A stretch of 39,814 nucleotides of DNA, from IMG/VR virus record IMGVR_UViG_3300032236_000429, positions 1-39,814 of that record. One strand, 5' to 3'. The notes beneath the pieces are model-generated. The model was not told where the DNA came from, searched no databases, and saw only the letters and a list, made by a program, of their open reading frames with translations. This document shows positions 2,749 to 25,212 of this stretch, in pieces. The stretch's first letter is position 1; the number at the start of each line of letters is the position of its first letter. The DNA comes from a virus. The position numbers and the translations under genes are program-made.

Positions 2749-3171
2749 TTATTTCCATTTCCTGCCTGATTTAATGTTCCAAGCATGATATTTAGAAATG
2801 CCATATTTTTCTGCGGCTTCTTTGCATTTTTTGCCGCTAGATAAAAAATCTTTTATTGATGCAACAATTTCTTTATTTAAGATTGTTGTTGATCTATTTC
2901 TGTTTTGCTCAATCAAATTAGACCATTGGCAATTTTCTGGGCAATAATTTCCATCATTATCAATTCTGTCAATGGTCAAATAATCTTTATATCCGCTTTG
3001 CTCTGCCCACAGTCTAAACTCAGCAAAACTTTCTCTCCATTCATTGCAAACGGAAATTCCTCGTAAACCATACCTATGGAATTTCTTGTCCGTTTTGCAA
3101 TAACACCTAGATTTCATGTGACACCAGATTTTATACAATCTTGTGCCGCATCCGCCATGTTTTTTAGCCAT
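2749..3171 (-). CDS. HNH homing-type endonuclease
   Basis: A 140-residue protein of the free-standing phage HNH type. The LTIDRIDNDGNYCPENCQW block at residues 65-83 is the characteristic core, preceded by a cysteine-bearing N-terminal part (IWCHMKSRCY). Residues 100-140 form a probable helix-turn-helix (CKEAAEKYGISKYHAWNI) that would help DNA binding. Such enzymes cut at a conserved site and copy themselves into unoccupied alleles. The gene looks more AT-rich than its neighbours and is bounded by a structured element upstream (3207-3259) and a terminator downstream (2708-2733), so it appears as a cassette inserted into the recombination operon. Its target is unknown. Confidence 0.85.
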   Translation of the reverse strand: MAKKHGGCGTRLYKIWCHMKSRCYCKTDKKFHRYGLRGISVCNEWRESFAEFRLWAEQSGYKDYLTIDRIDNDGNYCPENCQWSNLIEQNRNRSTTILNKEIVASIKDFLSSGKKCKEAAEKYGISKYHAWNIKSGRKWK

Positions 3172-3206
3172 AATTTACCCCTTACAGTAAATAACCTTAA
3201 ATAAAA

Positions 3207-3259
3207 TTCGCGGCGAGCCAGATAAGGTTCTGGTTTTCGGGGATCAGCCTAGCCGCGAA
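3207..3259 (-). other. Structured inverted-repeat element between SSB and HNH genes
   Basis: A perfect 8-base inverted repeat TTCGCGGC / GCCGCGAA (3207-3214 and 3252-3259) encloses a second perfect hairpin CCAGA / TCTGG (3218-3222 and 3229-3233). On the minus strand the outer stem ends in AATTTTATTT, which is T-rich but not a classic U-tract. It may be an attenuating terminator for the early operon or a leader structure of the HNH gene. It occupies most of the 100-base gap between the two genes. Confidence 0.6.
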
Positions 3260-8123: not shown

Positions 8124-8313
8124 CGAACGCTATTTTTCCGAATATATGCCGCGCTGGAAAAGAATAGATAACCCGAATCGGATCAAAGGAATGAAAATGT
8201 TATTCAAGGAAACGAACGGGCCAGCAGTTATCGGTGTCTGGTATGAAGGCTGCAACTGGGAATGGTACTGCGGTCTACCGAAGCATTCGCCTGGGGATAA
8301 ATCTAGTGCCTAA
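8116..8313 (+). CDS. Hypothetical protein, 65 aa
   Basis: A small protein rich in Trp, Tyr and Arg (MSNERYFSEYMPRWKR, then YEGCNWEWYCGLP). The ATG at 8116 overlaps the RusA stop in ATGAGTAA, which favours this start over a TTG at 8107. It overlaps the next gene by eight bases. No family recognised. Confidence 0.5.
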   Translation: MSNERYFSEYMPRWKRIDNPNRIKGMKMLFKETNGPAVIGVWYEGCNWEWYCGLPKHSPGDKSSA

Positions 8314-8554
8314 AGCGAGACAGGATATTATCGGAATGACTATCGGATACTGGACGGTTATCTCTTCAGATCAGGATAAGCAGACGAACAACGGCATTAA
8401 GCGCGTTCTAGTAGCAAAGTGCAGATGCGGCACAGTCCGCTCAGTGTTGGAACAGAATCTTCTCAGCGGCCAGAGCAAGTCCTGTGGATGCCTCCAGAAG
8501 GAACGAGCCAGAGCGTATCAGCAACAACTCTGGGCAAAACGAAAAGCAAAATAG
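8306..8554 (+). CDS. Small cysteine-motif DNA-binding-like protein
   Basis: An 82-residue protein read from a GTG at 8306, which overlaps the preceding stop. It has KCRCG and, after about 20 residues, SCGCL (CxC...CGC), a pattern seen in many small phage proteins of the HNH and AP2 associated type, and ends in a very basic helix (KERARAYQQQLWAKRKAK). Nucleic-acid binding through a small zinc site is likely. No nuclease motif is visible, so it may be a stand-alone DNA-binding remnant. Confidence 0.55.
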   Translation: MPKARQDIIGMTIGYWTVISSDQDKQTNNGIKRVLVAKCRCGTVRSVLEQNLLSGQSKSCGCLQKERARAYQQQLWAKRKAK

Positions 8555-14236: not shown

Positions 14237-14291
14237 ATACTATGATATAGAGTTATTGCCGGCGCAATGCTGGTTCTTACTCCTCCTCTCG

Positions 14292-14319
14292 GCCCAGATT
14301 AATCCTCTGGGCTTTTTTT
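14292..14319 (+). terminator. Rho-independent terminator after scaffold
   Basis: A perfect seven-base stem GCCCAGA / TCTGGGC (14292-14298, 14306-14312), a seven-base loop and a run of seven T residues (14313-14319). It ends the terminase-portal-scaffold transcript, so the coat gene needs read-through or a separate promoter. Confidence 0.9.
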
Positions 14320-14335: not shown

Positions 14336-14408
14336 GCGGCAGGAGGTTCGAAACTCCGCTAGTCTAGTCAACTAGCAGCCGCATCCTCGACTACTCTTGA
14401 CTTAGAGG
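14336..14408 (+). promoter_or_regulatory. Structured leader of the GIY-YIG mRNA
   Basis: An outer stem GCGGC/GCCGC (14336-14340, 14378-14382) encloses two hairpins, GGAG/CTCC (14342-14345, 14354-14357) and GCTAG/CTAGC (14358-14362, 14372-14376), so the RNA can fold as a three-way junction. Further on, CCTC (14385-14388) can pair with GAGG (14405-14408), the ribosome-binding site of the endonuclease, four bases before its ATG. Sequestering the ribosome-binding site is a known way in which phage homing endonucleases are kept low. Confidence 0.5.
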
Positions 14409-14412
14409 TTCT

Positions 14413-15042
14413 ATGAAACAGTTCTACGTTTACATTCACAAGAAGCCTGATGGAACGCCGTTCTATGTTGGAAAGTCTGGAACGCAAAGACACAAATCTA
14501 TTTGGCGCAAACACAACCCGCATCACACAAACATTGTAAAAAAGTATGGTCCTGACAACATTATTGTTGAGTTGATTGCTTGTAGGTCTGAGTCTGAGGC
14601 ATTTGATCTTGAGAAAATTTACATAAAACAGTTAAAGGAAGCCGGATACATTCTTTGCAATCTGACGGATGGAGGCGAAGGGGTTGGAGGCTACAAAAGA
14701 ACAGAAGCAGAAAAACTAGCAAACGGCAAAAGGAAAAAAGGAAACACCTATCGCCGTGGATCAACTCACACAGAAGAAGCAAAAGAAAAGAATCGGCAAG
14801 CGCATTTAGGAAAAAAGGATACGGCCCAGACGATAGAGAAAAGAAGAAAAGCAATAACAAAACCAAGAAAATCTATCTCAGGTATCTGCATGGTTTATTG
14901 GTACAAAAGCTGGAAATGTTGGGTAGCAAAAATCAATATAGGAGGAAAACAAAAGCATCTTGGCTATTTTGATAACTATTTTGACGCTTGCTGTGCTAGA
15001 AAATCAGCAGAGCTTGAAGTTTACAAAAAATTGTTTGTGTGA
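14413..15042 (+). CDS. Free-standing GIY-YIG homing endonuclease
   Basis: A 209-residue endonuclease with three parts. Residues 1-90 are the GIY-YIG nuclease: YVY (5-7), YVG (18-20), basic residues R26/R32, E67 in FDLEKIYI, and the NLTDGGEG end motif. Residues 112-135 (RRGSTHTEEAKEKNRQAHLG) are a NUMOD3-type DNA-binding repeat. Residues 155-203 (WKCWVAKI..GKQKHLGYFDNYFDACCARKSAE) form an AP2 DNA-binding domain. It appears AT-rich beside its neighbours, typical of mobile genes. It lies between scaffold and coat, 149 bases before the group I intron of the coat gene, not inside it. It may cut intron-less coat alleles and spread the intron with it. Confidence 0.85.
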   Translation: MKQFYVYIHKKPDGTPFYVGKSGTQRHKSIWRKHNPHHTNIVKKYGPDNIIVELIACRSESEAFDLEKIYIKQLKEAGYILCNLTDGGEGVGGYKRTEAEKLANGKRKKGNTYRRGSTHTEEAKEKNRQAHLGKKDTAQTIEKRRKAITKPRKSISGICMVYWYKSWKCWVAKINIGGKQKHLGYFDNYFDACCARKSAELEVYKKLFV

Positions 15043-15089
15043 TAAATAATGCACACCAAAAGCATTCTGCCTAGATTCTTTTGCGGCCA

Positions 15090-15123
15090 ATTGAATCATT
15101 CGAGGGATCGGCTCCCATTCAAT
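15090..15123 (+). promoter_or_regulatory. Hairpin in the coat-gene leader
   Basis: ATTGAAT (15090-15096) pairs with ATTCAAT (15117-15123) and GGGA (15104-15107) with TCCC (15113-15116), with a seven-base bulge on the 5' side. No T-run follows. It lies about 45 bases before the coat start and may stabilise or control the late mRNA. The rest of 15043-15168 shows no convincing gene. Confidence 0.5.
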
Positions 15124-15168
15124 AACCAGATTAGGCAAATCTTTTATCAATTTTTTATGGAGGTTGCC

Positions 15169-16705
15169 GTGAGCAATCAGCTATTAACGATTAACCACGG
15201 TCGCGCTATTGCGTAAGCGATAGATGAAAACGGGGTGAATTGCTGGAACTCCCTTAGAGCCTAAATGCCACAACGTAGTCTGCAAAGACAAGTGTGAAGG
15301 ACTGAAAAGTTTTAGGATTGGGAAATCAGCAGCCAAGCGACTCAGGAATGAGTTGAAGGTTCAACGACTAGAGCATACCATCCAGAACGGATGATGAAGC
15401 TCCAAGAGTGCCCCGCATCCTAATAGGATGAAGATATAGTCTCATCTATGGTGAAAACCATAGGACTTCGCAATTAAAAAGGAAGTCATAAGGCATTGCT
15501 CAATGATTACAAATGAGGCGCTCAGGGTACTTACCAACCAGTTGGTATTTACTCGTGCGGTTTCTAGGCAGTACGATTCGAAATTCGCAATCGAAGGTGC
15601 AAAGATCGGTACTACTATCAATCTTCGCAAACCGCCCCGTTATGTCGGTCGTCTTGGTCCGGCACTACAGGTTGAATCTTCTGTTGAAACGTATGTTCCG
15701 TTGACTCTCGGCACTCAGTTTGGTGTCGATATGGCGTTTACTACTCAGGATCTCACGATGTCTATTAGTGATTTCTCTGATCGTTTCATCAAACCCGCTG
15801 TTGCAGCAGTAGCCAACAAAATTGACTACGATGGCCTTCAGCAGTTCTTGAACGTCTACAACATGGTTGGTACTCCTGGCGTACTGACTGGTACTCCGAC
15901 TTCAGCACAGGCACAGGCGGCTCCTTTGGCTGCTCGCGCACGTCTGAATCAGGAAGCGGCTCCGGTTGACGAAGATCGTCATATCATTGTTGATCCGACT
16001 GTGGAAGTAGGCATCGTTTCCGGTCTTACTAACCTGTTCAATCCGCAGGGAACTATCTCTCGCATCTTTGAAAAAGGCGCGCTTGGTGATAGCACTCTCG
16101 GCTTCAACTGGGCAATGGATCAGAACGTAGGCAACTTCACTGCTGGTTCATCTACTGGTTTCACCACTAGCGCACAGGCTGGCGGCTCAGTTCAGAACAA
16201 TGCTCAGACTTCTTTTGGTCTGGCTATTTCTGCTCTGGTCGGCAATCTGACTGTGGGTTCAGTATTTACCATTCCTGGCGTCTATGCGGTCAATCCGCAG
16301 AATCGTCAGTCAACCGGCGCACTGCGTAACTTCGTTGTTACCGCTGCTGCTGGTGCTGGTGCTACTAGCCTTCAGATCTTCCCGACTCCGGTATTCTCCG
16401 GTCAGTTCCAGAACGTGACTAGCGCCACTGGCTCTATTCCTTCTGCATCTGCAACCGTTATTTCCGGTGTCAACACCAATCTTCCGAACGCTCTTGCATT
16501 CCACAAGGATGCGTTTGCATTCGGTACTGCGGATCTTATTCTCCCGCAGGGTGTAGATATGGCGGGTCGCGCTTCTGCGGATGGTGTGTCTATTCGTCTG
16601 GTTCGTCAGTACGACATTAACAGCGATCAGCTGCCTTGTCGTCTGGATGTTCTTTACGGATGGTCAACCGTCTATCCAGAACTTGCTTGCCGCATTACTG
16701 GTTAA
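15169..16705 (+). CDS. Major capsid (coat) protein, P22-fold, split by an intron
   Basis: The coding sequence is join(15169-15191, 15499-16705), giving 409 residues. Exon 1 starts with GTG, five bases after GGAGG (15159-15163), and encodes MSNQLLT plus the first two bases of Ile8. Exon 2 restores the frame as ISMITNEALRVL. Homologues of this family start MANTLLTP..VTxExL, so the splice gives the expected N-terminus, whereas the unspliced frame from ATG 15503 would lack it. Further family features are the RQYDSKFA...GAKIGTTINLRKP block, the FIKPAVAAVANKIDYDGL helix and a Ser, Ala, Gly-rich insertion domain. It forms the icosahedral shell. An in-frame ATG at 15157 has no ribosome-binding site. 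Confidence 0.88.
15192..15498 (+). ncRNA. Group I intron (IA2-like) in the coat gene
   Basis: A 307-base self-splicing intron with no ORF. P1 pairs exon CGAT (15188-15191) with GTCG (15200-15203), giving the conserved U-G pair at the 5' splice site. P2 is CTATTGC-GTAA-GCGATAG (15206-15223). The P4-P6 core contains AACGGGG, then AATTGCTGGAACTCCC as in T4 introns. P7 is GACTA/TAGTC (15366-15370, 15437-15441), enclosing a P7.1/7.2-type hairpin CATCC/GGATG (15379-15393) and P8 CATCC/GGATG (15416-15430). P9 is CTATGG/CCATAG (15446-15463), P9.1 GACTTC/GAAGTC (15464-15487). The terminal G is 15498. Exon joining restores the coat reading frame. P10 is weak. Confidence 0.9.
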
Positions 16706-24687: not shown

Positions 24688-25212
24688 CTATTTGATATGA
24701 CCATAGGTTCGGCCTGTATTAATGCAAGAAACATTGCCAGAAGTGACTGATTTACCTAGTATTTCTGAAATTTCCTTGTAACCTTTTCCATTAGCACTTA
24801 AAGACTTAATGGCTCTTACTTCATCATCTGTAAATTTTGCTTGCCATTGTTTTATCCCTCTTGGGCGTTTGGCCATTCCGTCCAGAGATTGATAATAGTG
24901 TTTAAGATTATCGCTTCTAGATATCCATTCAAGATTTTCTGGAATATTATTTGTTTTGTTGCCATCAATATGATTAACTTCTTTTTTTCCTTCTGGCGGC
25001 AATCCATGAAAAGCCATGGCGACAAGGCGATGCACAAGAAAATCTTTTCTTGCATTACAAGTGGTGGTAAGCAAAAGTCTTTCATATCCTTTCTGAACTC
25101 TTGTCCACATGATAAGATCTTCTTTGTTGGGACGTATTTTTGCGATACGACCAAAGTTGGAAGCAAAGTATGGCGGAAGATTTGGAATTGGCATCCATAT
25201 TTCGTTTGTCAT
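24688..25212 (-). CDS. NUMOD4-HNH homing-type endonuclease, antisense
   Basis: A 174-residue endonuclease on the minus strand within a plus-strand gene block. The N-terminal EIWMPIPNLPPYFASNFGRI is a NUMOD4 motif (4-23). The HNH core is HRLVAMAFHG then EVNHIDGNKTNNIPENLEW (78-96), with H81 and the NK-NN pair as metal-site residues. The tail (residues 128-165, AIKSLSANGKGYKEISEILG) is a helix-turn-helix. Its stop lies two bases after the gp4 stop, so the genes converge. It appears AT-rich relative to both neighbours, consistent with a mobile gene inserted between the gp4-like and gp10-like genes. The target is unknown. Confidence 0.85.
   Translation of the reverse strand: MTNEIWMPIPNLPPYFASNFGRIAKIRPNKEDLIMWTRVQKGYERLLLTTTCNARKDFLVHRLVAMAFHGLPPEGKKEVNHIDGNKTNNIPENLEWISRSDNLKHYYQSLDGMAKRPRGIKQWQAKFTDDEVRAIKSLSANGKGYKEISEILGKSVTSGNVSCINTGRTYGHIK

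Follow-up and report, generated by a model that had tools for sequence, protein, structure and literature searches.

A free-standing GIY-YIG endonuclease gene beside an ORF-less group I intron in a phage coat gene: probable collaborative homing and a single-base mark of endonuclease carriers

Can a homing endonuclease gene (HEG) that stands outside an intron carry along an intron that has no reading frame of its own? The question is raised by a coat-gene locus in the stretch of DNA analyzed here (the window), a complete viral contig and IMG/VR record of 39.8 kb with P22-type portal, coat and scaffold genes (Pfam and PHROG profiles). Free-standing HEGs commonly cut a neighboring conserved gene, with co-conversion (PMC2988022, PMC6083498). 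Collaborative homing, in which such an enzyme moves a nearby intron, has been described for psbA of cyanophage S-PM2 (PMC6083498) and is discussed for the terminase of ICP1 (PMC10448857). An earlier note on this DNA proposed the same for the coat gene. The features of the locus are collected in Table 1.

Table 1. Features of the scaffold-coat interval and the split coat gene (window coordinates)
Feature	Position	Strand	Details
Terminator-like hairpin 3' of scaffold gene	14291..14313	+	1 found vs shuffle mean 1.2; weak alone
Three-way-junction element upstream of HEG (candidate)	14336..14382	+	GCGGC / GGAG hairpin / GCTAGT-ACTAGC hairpin / GCCGC
HEG, free-standing homing endonuclease	14413..15042	+	between scaffold and coat genes; 209 aa
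HEG domain layout		+	GIY-YIG aa 4-78; NUMOD3-like linker; AP2-like C-terminus aa ~160-208
HEG body lacking nucleotide match to L093	14475..15019	+	exception: 75% stretch 14734-14793
Leader from HEG to coat start	15043..15168	+	resembles L093 and L043
Coat exon 1	15169..15191	+	GTG start; MSNQLLT plus AT
Coat position -13	15183	+	A in window; 9 bp ahead of window intron site
P1 (predicted)	15188..15203	+	exon/intron CGAUU with IGS GGUCG
ORF-less group I intron	15192..15498	+	307 nt; inserted ACGAT^CTCAATG
Coat exon 2, P22-type coat protein	15499..16705	+	Pfam PF11651 1.4e-30; phrog_283 2e-67

The interruption of the coat gene matches RF00028 over the full model (90.8 bits, E 3.7e-22), that is, a group I core, with P1 (exon ...CGAU with IGS GUCG) and P2 predicted. 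The joined exons read VSNQLLTISMITNEALR, with the frame restored, and intronless relatives read ...LLTISMITNEAL, identical to the window; because of this match the intron ends are fixed, and the exon junction given in the earlier note is confirmed. Also borne out are its statements that the intron has no ORF (the longest ATG-started internal frame is 25 aa) and that the HEG lies outside it, 149 bases ahead, as measured from the ORF and intron ends. A chance match or mis-annotation is ruled out by the RF00028 hit, the intronless relatives and the predicted P1. Judged by its sequence, the intron belongs to group I and is predicted to be self-splicing, and the window has the adjacency expected of collaborative homing, a free-standing HEG next to an ORF-less intron.

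The HEG product has a GIY-YIG domain above the Pfam cut-off (24.5 versus 22.6 bits, E 3e-5) and matches phrog_314, 'homing endonuclease' (3e-21). Residues Y5, Y7, Y18, G20, R26, E67 and N83 of the nuclease are invariant in an alignment of 13 relatives' HEGs, the catalytic Tyr, Arg, Glu and Asn of a GIY-YIG domain all being present. Of the two further domains that had been named, NUMOD3 is found by Pfam in nine of the 13 aligned relatives only, no match being listed for the window HEG at E up to 1, and AP2 falls below threshold in the window copy (E 0.007; best relative, E 1.7e-4). An AlphaFold2 model built with 13 homologues (mean pLDDT 75, pTM 0.39) has a GIY-YIG fold and an AP2-like C-terminus, and its nearest Foldseek structures, all with weak E-values, are the UvrC GIY-YIG domain 1yd6 and plant and Plasmodium AP2 domains. 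I-TevI and I-BmoI join a GIY-YIG nuclease to a separate DNA-binding part, as the window HEG may, but their genes lie inside the intron, whereas the window HEG lies outside (PMC2988022, PMC3943268).

Elsewhere in the window are two endonuclease-like genes on the minus strand, at 2749-3171 (phrog_3377, HNH-type) and 24688-25212 (HNH_3, with NUMOD4 just under the Pfam cut-off). A third, at 8273-8551 on the plus strand, is probably an N-terminal piece of an HNH gene of phrog_374. The minus strand also has a match to the int-alpA RNA family (42.8 bits) at 3195-3259, immediately 5' of the HNH-type gene. Near the HEG itself, the leader has no significant fold on its own (z 0.2) and holds a motif, ATTCGAGGGATCGGCTCC..., recognizable upstream of the coat gene in the relatives inspected, with or without the HEG. 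The 47-nt three-way junction is a candidate unnamed structured element: its fold z is -1.0, compensatory changes were seen by eye in all three stems across eight variants, and it has no Rfam match. It is present without the HEG in L037 and L042, and was kept after HEG deletion in L150 and L152.

Among 74 non-identical coat loci, 13 have a GIY-YIG homing endonuclease gene in the scaffold-coat interval (HEG+), further carriers having been found later; two of these loci (L041 and L090) are near copies, leaving 12 lineages. The same slot is thus filled in 12 or more interleaved lineages of the coat, eight of them intronless; in a tree built on the 3' part of the coat gene, HEG+ and HEG- lineages are intermixed. 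To stand free in one intergenic slot, present in some related phages and absent from others, is what characterizes seg-type HEGs of intronless homing; the T4 seg genes likewise stand between conserved genes and are thought to cut the neighbor, with co-conversion (PMC2988022, PMC6083498), but they have no intron partner, and their enzymes have been tested experimentally. The HEGs share the N-terminal nuclease and have C-termini of at least five types. In L093 the flanks of the HEG are 92-100% identical to the window and the HEG body differs, a swap of one HEG for another; L150 and L152 resemble the HEG+ phage L083 with the HEG deleted in place and its 3' end left behind; and the slot of L078 holds an HNH/AP2-like gene. 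A related GIY-YIG HEG (L289:133-750) lies directly upstream of an apparent major capsid gene in an unrelated phage. The scattered carriers, the variety of C-termini, the swap, the deletions and these last two loci together mark the gene, as far as comparison of genomes goes, as mobile, modular and in turnover. Two additional coat scans returned mostly the same contigs, and a scan of bacterial genomes for coat relatives gave only distant coats. In one distant coat gene (L135:4001-5477, MW202674), annotated as two parts separated by a small ORF, the GATATAGTC intron motif was not seen; a high-GC viral contig, L223, has a GIY-YIG gene with an intron-like stretch on either side, perhaps inside a single gene.

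Where the enzyme may act is suggested by the coat gene. Coat positions are numbered on joined exons from the A of the conserved Met codon as 0 (window 15503), and intron sites are named after the first base of exon 2. Across 1226 coat columns, compared between eight HEG+ and 28 HEG- intronless lineages, the top column is -13, with G in 26 of 28 HEG- and one of eight HEG+ lineages (3.2e-5); after 90% dereplication the counts are 20 of 20 and one of six (9.1e-5). When HEG labels were permuted, 11 of 5000 permutations reached the -13 value, a gene-wide p of 0.002 for a signal that was found by scanning and from which permutation only partly removes relatedness. The best columns in the portal, scaffold, terL and next genes reach 1.7e-3 to 1.9e-2. 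Two rows of the scan are doubtful, L048 (upstream DNA not visible) and L078 (HNH HEG); p is 5e-5 without both and stays at or below 1.7e-4 across removals of doubtful rows. HEG+ lineages have C, A or T at this position (codons CTC, TTA, CTT, TTC), the change is silent in most of them, and the pattern is seen in all six HEG+/HEG- sister pairs; L284, outside the scan, is HEG+ with CTT and fits. The sole intronless HEG+ lineage with G (L041/L090) has the conserved Met changed to Ser, and the exceptions on the other side are L025 and L031, HEG- without G.

The -13 pattern has the look of a target at the coat start being shielded from the carrier's own enzyme, and the base may be one by which the shared nuclease part recognizes or cuts its site. 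I-BmoI discriminates alleles by one base pair, according to a title cited in these sources, and cleavage by I-TevI falls 23-25 nt away from the site of insertion (PMC2988022, PMC3943268). The HEG- coat sequences inspected by eye showed no CNNNG motif of the I-TevI type ending at -13.

Introns related to that of the window, all ORF-less, occupy four coat positions: -4 (window), +2 (L020), +5 (L043) and +104 (L082, L230, L255). Every site directly follows GAT. All six are 305-307 nt long with a predicted P1, no ORF remnant was seen in any of them, and the guide tracks the site: GUCG faces CGAU in the window and L020, GUCU faces AGAU in the +104 introns. Introns are often closer than their host coat genes, as in L230 and L255 (95.1% versus 75.6%) and in the window and L043 (intron core, 90.9% versus 74.6%), and those of L043 and L230 are 95.1% identical despite different sites. 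Moreover, between about +96 and +340 the exons of L255 and L082 match the L230/L042/L032 group far more closely than they do elsewhere, and in L043 the first 130 nt of the coat gene have been exchanged. Such exchanged tracts around introns are, on this comparative evidence, what homing at the DNA level leaves.

The explanation that best accounts for the locus, which we hold slightly likelier to be right than wrong, is that the HEG homes by cutting the coat 5' end and that the adjacent intron is copied too. The enzyme, encoded in the scaffold-coat gap, would cut the conserved coat 5' end of HEG-less relatives near -13 (15183), and repair off the HEG+ genome would copy the HEG with flanking DNA. 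HEG+ genomes would escape self-cutting mostly through the silent change at -13, with a missense mutation of the conserved motif possibly serving in one lineage and the intron possibly in others. In the window and two relatives the intron would be co-copied with the HEG, because it lies 9-18 bp from -13. The locus is probably a case of such collaborative, or trans, homing: the -13 association lies 9 bp from the window intron site, the sites at -4, +2 and +5 fall within 9 bp at the coat start of phages that all have the upstream HEG, and exon tracts have been exchanged.

To this extent the earlier proposal is supported; an obligatory pair is not, strict one-to-one pairing being ruled out by the intronless HEG carriers and by L255, which has the +104 intron and no HEG in the slot. 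In the coat-search set the intron occurs in two of nine HEG+ and none of 26 HEG- loci (hand-calculated p about 0.06, weak alone), and in four of 12 HEG+ lineages against one of 27 others (p 0.025, with biased sampling). As a shield for its own genome the intron fits L043, which has both G and intron. The window and L020 are already without G at -13, so their introns are not needed for self-protection. The only other HEG+ phage with G, the intron-bearing L082, has no simple fit: it also retains the Met codon, and its +104 intron leaves the proposed target uninterrupted. Given the many intronless HEGs, L255 and the base already changed in the window, co-mobilization is plausible but not obligatory.

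The same observations feed the most serious alternative, an unlikely one in our estimate, that the locus is a hot spot for two mobile elements independent of each other, the HEG homing alone and the intron moving by another endonuclease or by reverse splicing; adjacency would then be coincidental, both favoring conserved essential genes. The HEG is intronless in at least eight lineages, and the L255 intron need not depend on it, since L255 lacks a HEG in the slot and its examined stretch showed no GIY-YIG gene. The tract that L255 shares with L230, two phages whose introns are so much closer than their coats, excludes the -13 region. The same intron subfamily also occurs at other loci in about 54 other viral contigs, mostly with no recognized HEG within 2.5 kb, a soft negative because only simple motifs and one GIY-YIG profile were used; an intron-pattern scan with a longer gap gave one new match, unrelated. 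Against independence stand the three clustered sites, all in HEG+ phages, and the -13 column, which ties the HEG to the same stretch of coat gene.

Improbable is the view that the -13 pattern is hitchhiking, an arriving HEG bringing the donor's coat start so that the base marks a haplotype and not recognition. HEG+ pairs differ by 20% over the coat gene's first 100 nt but by 5-10% over the following 1000 nt, and patchy mosaics occur in HEG- pairs as well; this divergence was not accepted as proof of co-conversion and is no more than suggestive, since peaks turn up in HEG- pairs and in the next gene too. HEG+ genomes, however, show three bases and four codons at -13 on different haplotypes, and the neighboring columns are far weaker (next best, 0.009). 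Very improbable is a remnant of turnover, in which the intron lost its own endonuclease and the free-standing HEG arrived separately, as proposed for the ICP1 terminase locus in PMC10448857: in part of the intron subfamily there is a long interval with room for an ORF, and HEG turnover is visible in L093, L150 and L078, but the six coat introns are uniform in length and free of ORF remnants.

With homing from the scaffold-coat slot as the preferred reading, the locus would be of the collaborative kind, its enzyme being GIY-YIG and its split gene that of the coat. By likeness to F-CphI and the psbA intron of S-PM2 a target is expected at the intron site; F-CphI, however, has an Endo VII-type motif, its intron blocks self-cleavage and cleavage has been shown (PMC6083498), whereas the window locus pairs a GIY-YIG/AP2 enzyme with a coat gene, introns are found at several sites, and most HEG carriers have none. 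The window locus differs from collaborative homing as described in that self-protection seems usually to be one silent base and only sometimes the intron. T4 mobE is a neighboring free-standing HEG that moves an intron without a working enzyme, that of nrdB, as is proposed for the window HEG, but mobE is HNH and the nrdB intron keeps a defunct HEG, unlike the window locus (PMC2988022). In ICP1, as far as the accessible part of PMC10448857 goes, a T5orf172 HEG likewise lies beside an interrupted essential head gene, the spliced terminase, and cognate slots carry different HEGs in relatives, as here; the nuclease family and target gene differ, and a site-level protection pattern is not described there.

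A broader reading is tentative and less likely than not: the partnership may have been assembled repeatedly in one phage group, a GIY-YIG HEG of modular build attacking the coat start from one constant slot, with three escape routes (one silent base, a conserved-motif missense, or a group I intron at several sites within 9 bp) and with the intron hopping between sites as its guide sequence is re-adapted. How a free-standing HEG and an ORF-less intron come together is called unclear in PMC10448857. The relatives assembled here show nearly every combination at one coat gene (HEG alone, intron alone, both, neither, swapped, deleted) and form an unusually informative set for collaborative homing, in which the -13 site reduces the model to a question of cleavage at a single base.
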